NCBI GenBank assembly: GCA_947503525.1
Contig: CANNEA010000006.1
Coordinates: 1 to 64,000 of the forward strand
DNA: 64,000 nucleotides
DNA from: an uncultured Carboxylicivirga sp.
GTDB lineage: Bacteria > Bacteroidota > Bacteroidia > Bacteroidales > Marinilabiliaceae
Direction of reading: 5' to 3'
The translations under genes were made by a program, and so were the position numbers. Under the pieces are notes generated by a model. It searched no databases and was not told where the DNA came from. It saw only the letters and a program-made list of their open reading frames with translations. Shown here in pieces: positions 12,917 to 57,850 of this stretch; within the stretch, counting starts at the first letter, position 1, and each line of letters starts with the position of its first letter.

Positions 12917-12978
12917 GCCATTGCTACTGTCAGTTTTTGATAGTGATAAAAAGAAGACCTGACATAATGTGCATAAAT

Positions 12979-13025
12979 AAGGATCGCATCTTTAAGAGCA
13001 TTATGCCAATAAAGATGCGATCCTT
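12979..13025. repeat. Dispersed hairpin repeat, diverged copy with compensatory changes
   Basis: A perfect 16-bp stem, AAGGATCGCATCTTTA/TAAAGATGCGATCCTT, with a 15-nt loop. The arm differs from AAGGAGCGGCTCTTTA (copies at 2212, 42427 and 43880) at three positions, and each change is matched in the opposite arm. With the secG terminator it accounts for most of the 307-bp gap between groES and secG. Confidence 0.75.
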
Positions 13026-13039
13026 AAAATTTTTTCATA

Positions 13040-32005: not shown

Positions 32006-32419
32006 TTAATTAACAGGGATTTTCTTCACATTCAGGCTGCTAAGCTCGGTGTGAGGAGGTAAATATTTTGTGATTTCCTGGTTATTTATGTTATAACATC
32101 CTTTAATGTTTGGAATGGAAGCAATACAAGAAATTAGTTTCTTTTGCTCAATCAAATTGCTCGGGCAGATTATATAGTCGATGCCTTTGGGTGTTTTTAA
32201 TAATTTTTGAAGCGAGCTGGATAGTTTCAGGAGATATGAAGTTTCTATGGAGGATTGGTTTTCTAATTCAAACAATTGCACGTCATAAGCCATGATGCTT
32301 ATTTTTTCTTCACAGATTAAATAATCACCTAGTTTTTTGAGGTGTAGCAAGAGGGCGTGTGTTTTTAAATCTGTAGCCAGACCCATATAACTTATACTAT
32401 CTTGAGGACTTTTCTTCAT
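32006..32419 (-). CDS. Divergent IPExxxVDY-family protein
   Basis: A 137-residue soluble protein. The family is named after a short motif; here the matching position seems to be TPKGIDYIICP, preceded by YLLKLSSSLQKLL. The match is weak, but position is diagnostic: in many Bacteroidota this family follows acpP-fabF-rnc, as here (53 bp after rnc). Function of the family is unknown to me. The usual next gene, pyk, is absent and rprX follows instead. Confidence 0.6.
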   Translation of the reverse strand: MKKSPQDSISYMGLATDLKTHALLLHLKKLGDYLICEEKISIMAYDVQLFELENQSSIETSYLLKLSSSLQKLLKTPKGIDYIICPSNLIEQKKLISCIASIPNIKGCYNINNQEITKYLPPHTELSSLNVKKIPVN

Positions 32420-32472: not shown

Positions 32473-33204
32473 CTATATTTCCTCCAGAGATTGTAAAGCT
32501 TGATGGGCAGCATTCTGTTGAGCTTCCTTCTTAGAGTATCCTTCTCCTTCTCCAAGTAACTCTTCATTAATAATGGCTCGTGCAATAAATGTGGCCGTTA
32601 GTTCTGAAGCCTCATGAATTTCTTCGGTAACGAAATTGACGTTTTTCTTATGCTTCTGACCCCATTCTATCAAAATCGATTTATAGTTGGTGTCTTTCTT
32701 TGCAATACTGTGCAGGTTGATGTACTTGTCAATTAACCTTTTTTGAATAAAGGCTTTACATTTAGAATAACCTTTATCAACATACACCGCGCCAATTAAA
32801 GCCTCAAGGGCATCGCCGAGAATGCTTGTTTGTGATGCATCTATTTGAGATTGCATTTTAACCCAATGTTGCAAACCCATTTGATAAGCAATATTGTTAA
32901 GTAAATTTCGGTTAACAATGCGCGCCCTTGTTTTGGTGAGGAAACCTTCGTTTTTATTGGGAAACTGCTCAAATAGGATTTCTGCAACTATGGCACCTAA
33001 AATTGCGTCTCCAAGGTACTCGAGGCGTTCATTATTGATAAAGCCTTTTTTATTGGCTTTAATCATTGCTGATTTATGTACCATGGCCTGCTGGTATAAT
33101 TCCATATTATTTGGGCGAAGACCAGTTGCTGACCATATAAAATTATAAAACTTCTTCCCTTTGAAGGGAAGAAGTTTTATAATGTGCAAAAGTGGTTTAA
33201 TCAA
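32473..33204 (-). CDS. rnc: Ribonuclease III with self-complementary 5' coding end
   Basis: A 243-residue RNase III, cleaving double-stranded RNA in rRNA and mRNA processing. The catalytic signature NERLEYLGDAILGAI, the second acidic motif LGDALEALIGAVYVD and a C-terminal dsRNA-binding domain (EGYSKKEAQQNAAHQAL) are intact. A longer frame runs back into fabF, which is implausible; I take the TTG at 33204 (10 bp after the fabF stop), with TTG at 33189 as an alternative. The N-terminal LLPFKGKKFYNFIW matches the extension seen in Bacteroidota RNase III, so the region is coding. Residues 8-21 are encoded by a perfect inverted repeat that may be an autoregulatory substrate. Confidence 0.93.
   Translation of the reverse strand: MIKPLLHIIKLLPFKGKKFYNFIWSATGLRPNNMELYQQAMVHKSAMIKANKKGFINNERLEYLGDAILGAIVAEILFEQFPNKNEGFLTKTRARIVNRNLLNNIAYQMGLQHWVKMQSQIDASQTSILGDALEALIGAVYVDKGYSKCKAFIQKRLIDKYINLHSIAKKDTNYKSILIEWGQKHKKNVNFVTEEIHEASELTATFIARAIINEELLGEGEGYSKKEAQQNAAHQALQSLEEI
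33142..33183 (-). promoter_or_regulatory. Perfect 20-bp inverted repeat in the start of rnc
   Basis: Two 20-nt arms, 33142-33161 and 33164-33183, are exact reverse complements around a 2-nt centre; in RNA this gives a stem of about 18 bp with a UUCAAA loop. It lies 6-21 nt after the likely rnc start codons and about 30 nt after the fabF stop. A double-stranded stem here would be a natural RNase III target and could also hide the start region. A weak terminator role is possible, as four U follow it. Confidence 0.75.
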
Positions 33205-33214
33205 AACTACTTTT

Positions 33215-34462
33215 TTACAATGCTTTAAATACCACAGATGCATTGTGACCACCAAATCCAAATGTATTGGATAAAGCCACTTTAACCGAACGTTCCTGTG
33301 CTTTGTCAAAAGTGAAATTGAGATTATTGTCAATTTCAGGATCGTCTTCAAAGTGATTAATGGTAGGAGGCACAATGCCATTCTTGATGGCTAAGATACA
33401 TGCCATAGACTCAATAGCCCCGGCAGCACCAAGCAGGTGTCCTGTCATGGATTTTGTTGAACTGATATTCAATTTATAAGCATGATCACCGAAAACTTCT
33501 TTAATGGCTTTGGTCTCCGCAATATCTCCTAGAGGTGTTGAGGTTCCATGTACATTAATATAGTCAACTTCGGATGGATCAATGTTATTGTCCTTCAGTG
33601 CATTTGCCATAACTCGTTTTGCTCCCAATCCTTCAGGATGTGGTGCAGTAAGATGATGTGCATCAGCAGTCATGCCAGCTCCAACTACTTCGCAGTAGAT
33701 TTTAGCGCCACGTGCTTTAGCGTGCTCATATTCTTCAAGAATCAATGAAGCACCGCCTTCGCCCATCACAAAACCGTCACGTCCTTTATCAAATGGACGG
33801 GATGCAGTTTTCGGATCGTCGTTACGTGTTGACAAAGCTTGCATAGCATTAAATCCACCCACACCGGCTTCATTAATTGCAGCTTCTGAACCTCCAGTTA
33901 CAAATGCATTTGCTTTGCCGAGGCGTATTAAATTATACGCATCGCCAATTGCATTGGTTGAAGAAGCACAAGCCGAAACGGTACCGAAATTAGGACCACC
34001 AAAACCATGTTTCATAGAAATATGGCCTGGGGCAATGTCGGCAATCATTTTCGGAATGAAAAAAGGACTTAAACGTGGTGTTCCGTCCCCTTTTGCATAA
34101 CCTGTTGCTTCGTCTAAAAATGTTTTGATACCACCAATTCCTGTACCCCAAATAACACCAACCTCATTGTTGTCGATGTCTTCTGAGTCAAGCTTTGCAT
34201 CAGCAATAGCCTGATCGGCAGCAATTATCGCATATTGAGCGTAAATGTCAAGTTTTCTAACTTCTTTACGATCAAAATACTCTTTGGCATCATAACCTTT
34301 AACCTCGCACGCAAACTGTGTTTTGAACTTTGAGGCGTCAAATTGAGCAATAGGTGCTGAACCACTTACTCCATTTACCAGGTTAGTCCAAGTCTCATCA
34401 ACTGTCTTACCTAGTGGTGTAATGGCACCAAGCCCCGTAACAACTACTCTTTTTAACTCCAT
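33215..34462 (-). CDS. fabF: Beta-ketoacyl-ACP synthase II
   Basis: A 415-residue condensing enzyme of type II fatty acid synthesis. The Cys-His-His triad is visible: Cys165 in VSACASSTNA, His305 in NVHGTSTPLGD, His342 in KSMTGHLLGAAGA. The C-terminal NTFGFGGHNASVVF gate is intact. It follows acpP by 28 bp and precedes rnc by 10 bp. Confidence 0.98.
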   Translation of the reverse strand: MELKRVVVTGLGAITPLGKTVDETWTNLVNGVSGSAPIAQFDASKFKTQFACEVKGYDAKEYFDRKEVRKLDIYAQYAIIAADQAIADAKLDSEDIDNNEVGVIWGTGIGGIKTFLDEATGYAKGDGTPRLSPFFIPKMIADIAPGHISMKHGFGGPNFGTVSACASSTNAIGDAYNLIRLGKANAFVTGGSEAAINEAGVGGFNAMQALSTRNDDPKTASRPFDKGRDGFVMGEGGASLILEEYEHAKARGAKIYCEVVGAGMTADAHHLTAPHPEGLGAKRVMANALKDNNIDPSEVDYINVHGTSTPLGDIAETKAIKEVFGDHAYKLNISSTKSMTGHLLGAAGAIESMACILAIKNGIVPPTINHFEDDPEIDNNLNFTFDKAQERSVKVALSNTFGFGGHNASVVFKAL

Positions 34463-34490
34463 AACTACTCTTAAGTTATCCTACTCGTTC

Positions 34491-34727
34491 TTACTTAGCG
34501 TTTTCTTCGATATAAGAGATAGCATCTCCTACAGTTCCGATATTCTCTGCTTGATCGTCTGGAATAGCAATGTTGAATTCTTTTTCGAATTCCATAATCA
34601 ATTCTACAGTGTCAAGAGAGTCAGCTCCTAAATCATTGGTGAAGCTAGCTTCTGGTGCTACTTCTGTTTCGTCAACTCCCAACTTGTCTACGATGATTGC
34701 TTTTACTCTTGATGCAATGTCTGACAT
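34491..34727 (-). CDS. acpP: Acyl carrier protein
   Basis: A 78-residue ACP; the phosphopantetheine attachment site is Ser37 in [16 protein letters not shown]. It is acidic with four helices, as usual. First gene of the acpP-fabF-rnc run. The divergent purN gene starts 174 bp away. Confidence 0.98.
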
Positions 34728-34900
34728 AGCTCTAAGTTTTTTTAAATTAATACTAATAAAATGTTTTTAAACAACTTTGCAAAGAAATACATTTGTGGAT
34801 AATAATTCAAACTTCGTGTAAAGAAATTGATTATTCGCCTCTATTTTTTCTATTTTTACCCTTTGTTTCGAATAAAAATATCAAGTCTAAATAATAGATA

Positions 34901-42205: not shown

Positions 42206-42654
42206 GATATTTATATGAATGCTCGTATTTATTCTCTTTAGTTTCAGGCTGCAAAACTAGTAAAACTTATCCTTTTTGGCGAAGTAGATGAGCTGATTTT
42301 AAACAAGCTGATTGCTTTCTCCTTTTTGTTTGAGGTGCTCAGGTCGATTATTTCCTCAATTGTATTGGTAGTTTGCATCAAAGAACAGTTCAGTAATAAA
42401 TATCCTGCATATGCTGTTATAGTAAAAAGGAGCGGCTCTTTATACACATCATGCAAATAAAGAGCTGCTCCTTAAAACAGATATATTTTAGGAGTTTAAT
42501 AAAAGGCGATGCAGAAAATATTGAAAAGCTTAGCTATCATTTATTTGAGTTTTATACTTTTAGATTTTACGTCAAGAATTAAACTATCCTATTTTATTTC
42601 AACACGTTTAAAGGTTAAGATATTTGGTAGTTCAATTCTTTTGGGAATTCGTGA
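42206..42654. other. Gene-poor gap upstream of leuS
   Basis: Apart from a hairpin repeat at 42427-42473, I see no supported feature. A 70-residue open frame on the minus strand (42244-42456) ends in the hairpin and resembles no family; I treat it as chance. Confidence 0.4.
42427..42473. repeat. Dispersed hairpin repeat, copy 2
   Basis: Arms AAGGAGCGGCTCTTTAT and ATAAAGAGCTGCTCCTT pair over 17 bp with one mismatch (G-T) and a 13-nt loop. Same family as the elements at 2212, 12979 and 43880. Confidence 0.8.
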
Positions 42655-43879: not shown

Positions 43880-43924
43880 AAGGAGCGGCTCTTTATTAAA
43901 AGATGTCAATAAAGAGTCACTCCA
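43880..43924. repeat. Dispersed hairpin repeat, copy 3
   Basis: Arm AAGGAGCGGCTCTTTAT with a partner ATAAAGAGTCACTCC that has decayed at two or more positions. It lies 25 bp after array B and 30 bp before the TonB gene's stop codon. Confidence 0.75.
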
Positions 43925-57805: not shown

Positions 57806-57850
57806 AAAATATTTCCCGGATTTGTTATTTTCAAAACCGGGAAATATTTT
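57806..57850. terminator. Bidirectional terminator, PH operon and GH2 gene
   Basis: Perfect 14-bp stem AAAATATTTCCCGG/CCGGGAAATATTTT with a 17-nt loop, between the convergent ends at 57799 and 57877. Confidence 0.8.

Follow-up and report, generated by a model that had tools for sequence, protein, structure and literature searches.

What is the perfect inverted repeat near the 5' end of rnc, the gene for RNase III, in this uncultured Carboxylicivirga sp., and does the RNA helix that it encodes act on rnc, on the genes before it, or on nothing at all? Its arms occupy 33142-33161 and 33164-33183, are 2 nt apart and pair without a mismatch (100%); they lie within the rnc frame of the window, by which we mean the whole stretch of 64,000 nucleotides that was analysed. 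The genes of the locus and the parts of the hairpin are listed here from upstream to downstream.

34491..34727 (-): acpP (acyl carrier protein), a 78-aa ORF identified by eye from the sequence; first in the presumed transcript acpP-fabF-rnc
33215..34462 (-): fabF, an ORF with the Pfam ketoacyl-synthase N and C domains, directly upstream of rnc
33215-33217 (-): fabF stop codon
32473..33204 (-): rnc (RNase III), coding sequence from the proposed start, which is placed by alignment; Pfam Ribonucleas_3_3, Ribonuclease_3 and dsrm
33202..33204 (-): proposed rnc start TTG, 10 nt past the fabF stop, from alignment
33187..33189 (-): TTG taken as the start in the first-pass annotation, probably codon 6 of rnc
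33165..33183 (-): hairpin, 5' arm, 19 bp, from codon 8; its distance from the first base of the start codon is 21 nt
33161..33164 (-): hairpin loop, 4 nt as folded
33142..33160 (-): 3' arm of the hairpin, ends at codon 21
33134..33141 (-): U-rich flank past the helix, 5 of 8 T, on which a terminator reading (see below) is based

The inverted repeat and its setting

Twenty inverted-repeat pairs with arms of at least 16 nt lying within 200 nt were listed for the 64-kb window and the rnc repeat is the only perfect one among them, which confirms the exact 20-nt arms described in the first-pass annotation. The longest perfect stem of the window is accordingly 20 bp, as against maxima of 8-14 bp in 100 dinucleotide shuffles. 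Folded as the minus-strand mRNA, the repeat gives a helix of 19 bp with a 4-nt loop, in agreement with the 18-19 bp hairpin that had been proposed, and it does lie inside the rnc coding sequence as claimed, in the same frame as the Pfam matches to RNase III and its dsRBD. The five other inverted repeats of the window with at least 86% complementarity are all between ORFs, whereas the rnc hairpin is intragenic. Three intergenic hairpins (2211-2259, 42427-42473 and 43882-43923) have a common arm, GGAGCGGCTCTTTAT, of which the 6.56-Mb genome contains only three exact copies, all inside the window and on the same strand; two more, at 12978-13026 (24-nt arms, 88% complementary) and 57806-57850 (19-nt arms, 95% complementary), are possible terminators. 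A smaller hairpin around the proposed start (33184-33216) appears in the plus-strand fold and is absent from the minus-strand (mRNA) folds, and the two branches of the genus, judged by eye, have it in different registers.

A search of the 6.56-Mb genome found no second copy of the rnc palindrome (one of its two hits is the palindrome aligned with itself), and a mobile or repeat origin is rejected on this ground. A plasmid origin is rejected as well, since the fabF-rnc stretch had no megablast match among plasmids. Rfam returned five matches for positions 32900-34900 of the window, every one below the gathering score, and no matches for 11 loci that carry the helix; a known RNA family is therefore rejected, no match having reached the gathering threshold.

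The start of rnc had been presumed to be the TTG at 33187-33189. On alignment with 13 relatives of the same genus, the TTG at 33202-33204 falls opposite GTG in 9 of the 13 and opposite TTG in the other 4, and this codon is probably the start of rnc, the earlier assignment being probably five codons too far downstream. With the start at 33202-33204 the hairpin spans codons 8-21. Behind rnc lies an ORF of 137 aa (32006-32419) without a Pfam match at E≤0.001.

Conservation of the helix in the genus and the order

The rnc helix is present in all 13 same-genus genomes that were fetched. The genus alignment has 15 sequences (14 distinct), namely the window, the 13 relatives and one sequence from a sister genus, and 99.6% of its 266 cells are paired, compared with 54-62% when the register is slid. 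Changes on both sides are seen in 7 of the 19 pairs, the covariation score is above those of all 500 shuffles, and on four of five measures none of the 500 shuffles is as high, the measure of further pair types being the one that is not above the shuffles (175/500). At one locus (L011) a U-A pair has been swapped for G-C by way of two amino acid replacements, Leu to Arg and Lys to Thr. The comparison of relatives for compensatory pairing, which had been put forward as a check on the hairpin, thus came out strongly positive.

For the wider comparison we used 154 rnc starts from 65 families, all anchored on a conserved downstream motif: 28 from a first search, 26 from a second (the new ones among its 30 loci) and 100 additional stretches fetched from the matches of the second. 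This second search covered 295 genomes, 280 of them with a match, and the loci were taken from among the matches listed, which biases the 154 towards rnc genes resembling that of the window and probably makes carriers look more frequent in the order than they are. Going by the named carriers (Bacteroides, Prevotella etc.), the order is taken to be Bacteroidales. The start codon assigned to rnc at or close to the proposed position is GTG in 96 of the 154 loci, TTG in 27 and ATG in 12, the remaining 19 having none of the three. The GTG start stands a few bases past the fabF stop in these 96 loci, in carriers and non-carriers of the helix alike, and its conservation in this position suggests that the translation of rnc is coupled to that of fabF.

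When 48-nt windows were slid along the loci, a single deep dip of z was obtained at the helix site, with a mean z of -3.4 and 56% of the 154 loci below -2, while elsewhere 1-12% of the loci are below -2, apart from a shallow dip about 50 nt further on that reaches up to 19%. Among 134 loci with long flanks, 90 windows with z < -4 fall in the start region (81 in the 88 loci labelled as carriers and 9 in the 46 others), whereas about 540 nt of fabF contain 16 such windows and the remaining rnc 10. The RNA at the helix site folds better than its synonymous recodings in 76 of 148 loci (p≤0.01; 6 of the 154 cannot be tested there on account of an in-frame stop), and 69 of these 76 beat all 300 recodings; at the two control sites the same test is significant in 6 and 2 of the 154 loci. 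At least 13 of 16 pairs form around one common centre in 71 of the 154 loci, and around any other centre in at most 3. Within a strict set of 70 loci from 23 families, which have one common helix centre, pair 13-40 is G-C in 37 and A-U in 30, and pair 14-39 is A-U in 33 and G-C in 30. For sets that were unselected for the helix (65 loci, one per family, and all 154), the paired cells and the covariation are both above all 500 shuffles; the count of pairs changed on both sides is saturated in these sets (188/500 for the 65 loci and 319/500 for the 154).

The codons at the helix also differ from those used elsewhere in the same genes. Ile is encoded by ATA in 59 of 59 cases at the helix against 180 of 793 elsewhere, Arg by AGG in 30 of 40 against 34 of 550, and Pro by CCT in 27 of 29 against 36 of 133. 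The double constraint of RNA pairing and protein sequence, which the first-pass annotation had ascribed to the codons of the repeat, is shown by this selection at the codon level and by the order-wide covariation. As to the strand, G-U pairs outnumber A-C by 71 to 16 in 76 loci of the carrier families, the counts being 118:113 in other families and 95:69 across all 80 loci of the named-genome scan described below. The G-U excess in the carrier families indicates that the paired strand is the mRNA (sense), and an antisense RNA or a DNA-level palindrome is rejected by it as the selected form. The helix has a median length of 19 bp (76 loci, in a table where one carrier, L059, is mis-parsed as 2 bp), the middle half being 17-20 bp (125 loci), and some stems have 13-15 bp. 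The loops of 119 loci include 29 of the GNRA type and 18 of the UNCG type, for part of which common ancestry and the codons may account. From these comparisons of sequences it is near certain that the rnc mRNA contains a helix conserved across many families beyond what the protein demands.

Distribution of the helix

The scan of named genomes was made on the best 80 of 586 candidates. Among these 80, the helix is found in Bacteroides, Phocaeicola, Prevotella, Hallella, Parabacteroides, Dysgonomonas, Labilibaculum and Ancylomarina, and further in Gaoshiqia, Maribellus, Sunxiuqinia, Anaerophaga and Muribaculaceae; it is absent from the loci of Alistipes, Rikenella, Millionella, Paludibacter, Perlabentimonas and Taibaiella. 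RNase III therefore does not need such a helix everywhere, the first five of these lineages being without it. At least 12 pairs form in 56 of the 80 loci, which include at least two A+T-rich ones without a stable fold (L220 and L257). The best named match to the RNase III protein of the window, again among the best 80 of 586, is that of Anaerophaga thermohalophila with 57%. Within the order, 78 of the 154 loci are outside the strict carrier set. Outside it, a class-level sample gave 143 matches, of which 60 were fetched and 49 left after 11 without the anchor motif had been dropped, and no signal comparable to that of the order was found in these 49, judged by folds and pairing. Three of the 49 have the same centre as their best one (11-13 of 16 pairs, weak folds), and another three reach -13 to -16 kcal/mol at the site without that centre.

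When 134 RNase III proteins were placed on a quick tree, with the helix columns excluded, the trait required 11 changes compared with 38.3 when it was shuffled, the labels being set by a hard cut (88 of 134 with the helix) that leaves the 9 start-region windows of z < -4 among the 46 loci counted as lacking it. The helix may or may not have had a single origin in the order. The gene fabF adjoins rnc in all 76 carriers, and the helix is found in 76 of 144 loci where fabF is adjacent and in 0 of 10 where it is not (p 0.0014), an association that is confounded by ancestry.

The shallow dip about 50 nt downstream corresponds to a second site, at which 12 of the 154 loci beat their synonymous recodings, and 10 of these 12 have no significant first site (one of the ten being untestable there). 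The hairpin in these loci (L025, L027, L144, L148, L152, L153 and others) is formed by the GFYPxN codons, at about codons 16-33 of the anchored frame, and the conserved GFYPxN residues themselves favour a palindrome at this position. It may be that one RNase III substrate has here replaced another, for which the evidence is weaker than for the first site.

The probable role of the helix in RNase III control

A helix of about 19 bp makes about two turns and is long enough for cutting by RNase III, and the one described here lies in the gene whose product binds double-stranded RNA. We lean, with somewhat better than even confidence, to the reading that the hairpin in the rnc codons is a cis-acting element, most likely a site of predicted RNase III cleavage by which the enzyme limits its own synthesis. 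The acpP, fabF and rnc genes would then be read as one transcript on which the ribosomes finishing fabF start rnc. Where free RNase III is plentiful, it would cut the helix before or between elongating ribosomes and the rnc part would decay; where it is scarce, the ribosomes would melt the helix and rnc would be translated. As the cut would be made behind fabF, it would lower rnc and spare acpP-fabF, by a logic like that of the rpsO-pnp case taken up below. The adjacency of fabF in all carriers would also be explained by another kind of device for setting an expression ratio, and the alternatives have to be weighed against the same data.

An intrinsic, perhaps partial, terminator at the start of rnc would make most polymerases stop after acpP-fabF and keep rnc low, and the translation of rnc could relieve it. 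A consensus scan for terminators does flag the hairpin, though it found 2 sites in all where 2.7 were expected, and the outermost G-C pair is followed by at least 6 T in 8 nt in 61 of 125 loci. The helix is also found only where fabF sits just upstream, and the five intergenic hairpins of the window, as possible terminators, are of similar size; because these are equally long, the size of the helix alone decides nothing on this point. Against termination, what would be the U tract belongs to the helix, and its pairs covary. Pairing holds in 67 of 79 loci at 8-45, in 57 at 7-46 and in 51 at 6-47, compared with 42, 40 and 38 on shuffling (0 of 1000 shuffles in each case), and 8-45 is G-C or C-G in 23 of the 79. 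If T is counted past the end of the complete helix, at least 6 in 8 nt are found in only 25 of 125 loci. The tract is interrupted by an A at a fixed position in 113 of 126, and T in the four codons past the helix is barely above codon usage (+0.51, compared with +0.24 in loci without the helix). We consider a terminator unlikely on this balance, and only a little less so a control of translation, in which the helix would slow or hold ribosomes past a weak start, or RNase III or another dsRNA-binding protein would block them without cutting. A position about 21 nt past the start is just beyond the reach of an initiating ribosome, and the distance from the start codon to the helix in carriers is narrow, with a median of 21 nt and a middle half of 18-22. 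The start is GTG or TTG in 70 of the 76 carriers; non-AUG starts are, however, also frequent without the helix (53 of 78 loci), and the second site, which is significant in 12 of 154 loci about 50 nt past the first, fits a substrate better than a ribosome spacer.

It is much less probable that the helix serves the upstream mRNA, i.e. that the helix or its processed half shields the 3' end of acpP-fabF from exonucleases and that any effect on rnc is secondary. Such protection would agree with fabF being adjacent in every carrier and with the lack of the helix in all 10 non-adjacent loci, but 68 of the 144 fabF-adjacent loci do without the helix, and the intergenic gap could meet the same need while leaving the codons of RNase III unconstrained. 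A repeat that arose by chance, as a mobile palindrome or as a side effect of the protein sequence would look identical if one copy in one genome were all that was available; the comparative tests (folds, recodings, covariation and codons) and the absence of another copy refute this explanation, and we give it next to no weight.

Self-limitation by RNase III, as favoured here, has known counterparts. RNase III of E. coli is described as cutting a helix in the 5' leader of its own message (rncO) and thereby lowering it (PMC8708148, PMC3386247). Both cases thus have a helix in the enzyme's own mRNA, the E. coli cut being one that lowers the message; rncO is, however, in an untranslated leader, whereas the Bacteroidales helix is inside the coding frame and behind another gene. 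For the rnc of S. aureus, a stem-loop in the coding sequence is reported to be cut by RNase III in a negative feedback; this site is a long irregular helix, cut at U+296 and said to be conserved among staphylococci (PMC3386247). The helix of the present work differs in being near-perfect, in lying at codons 8-21, an unrelated place, and in being found in many families. Cleavage of the absB (rnc) operon transcript of Streptomyces coelicolor is also stated to act via the coding sequence (PMC3386247; cited in PMC2936110), so that by the account in PMC3386247 it has its element in the same kind of place as here. In the E. coli rpsO-pnp transcript a cut by RNase III between the genes is described as lowering pnp with the upstream gene unaffected (PMC8708148); the site is, as here, downstream of the message of an abundant gene, but it is intercistronic and controls pnp rather than rnc. 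Autoregulation of rnc in Sinorhizobium meliloti, for which cleavage of the enzyme's own message in vitro is reported as support (PMC6121014), resembles our proposal in involving that message. A literature search at the level of titles and passages, which covered few subscription papers, brought up no description of such a feedback site for any Bacteroidota and nothing on cleavage of an rnc message from this phylum, and the main text of the B. thetaiotaomicron transcriptome paper mentions neither rnc nor fabF. A survey of structured RNAs in human microbiomes reports 2022 candidates overlapping coding regions (PMC8040213), among which the rnc hairpin may possibly have been listed before without remark. 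Autoregulation by RNase III is known; the place of the proposed site, its age and the constraint on the enzyme's own N-terminus would be new.

To the fullest form of the proposal we would give about even chances. It holds that an order-wide RNase III operator lies inside the first codons of rnc, that a substrate of about 19 bp dictates N-terminal residues and rare codons (ATA, AGG) in many families and keeps the messages for abundant acpP-fabF and scarce rnc on one transcript, and that a few lineages without this helix have another about 50 nt further on. RNase III feedback has so far been described in a few Proteobacteria and Gram-positives, in a different place each time. The annotated rnc starts and N-termini in the order deserve to be revisited, and the locus illustrates clearly how an RNA structure shapes the protein sequence and the codon choice of a housekeeping enzyme. 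If the proposal is true, this would be a very old feedback element of an order dominant in the gut and the sea, found by the comparison of sequences alone.
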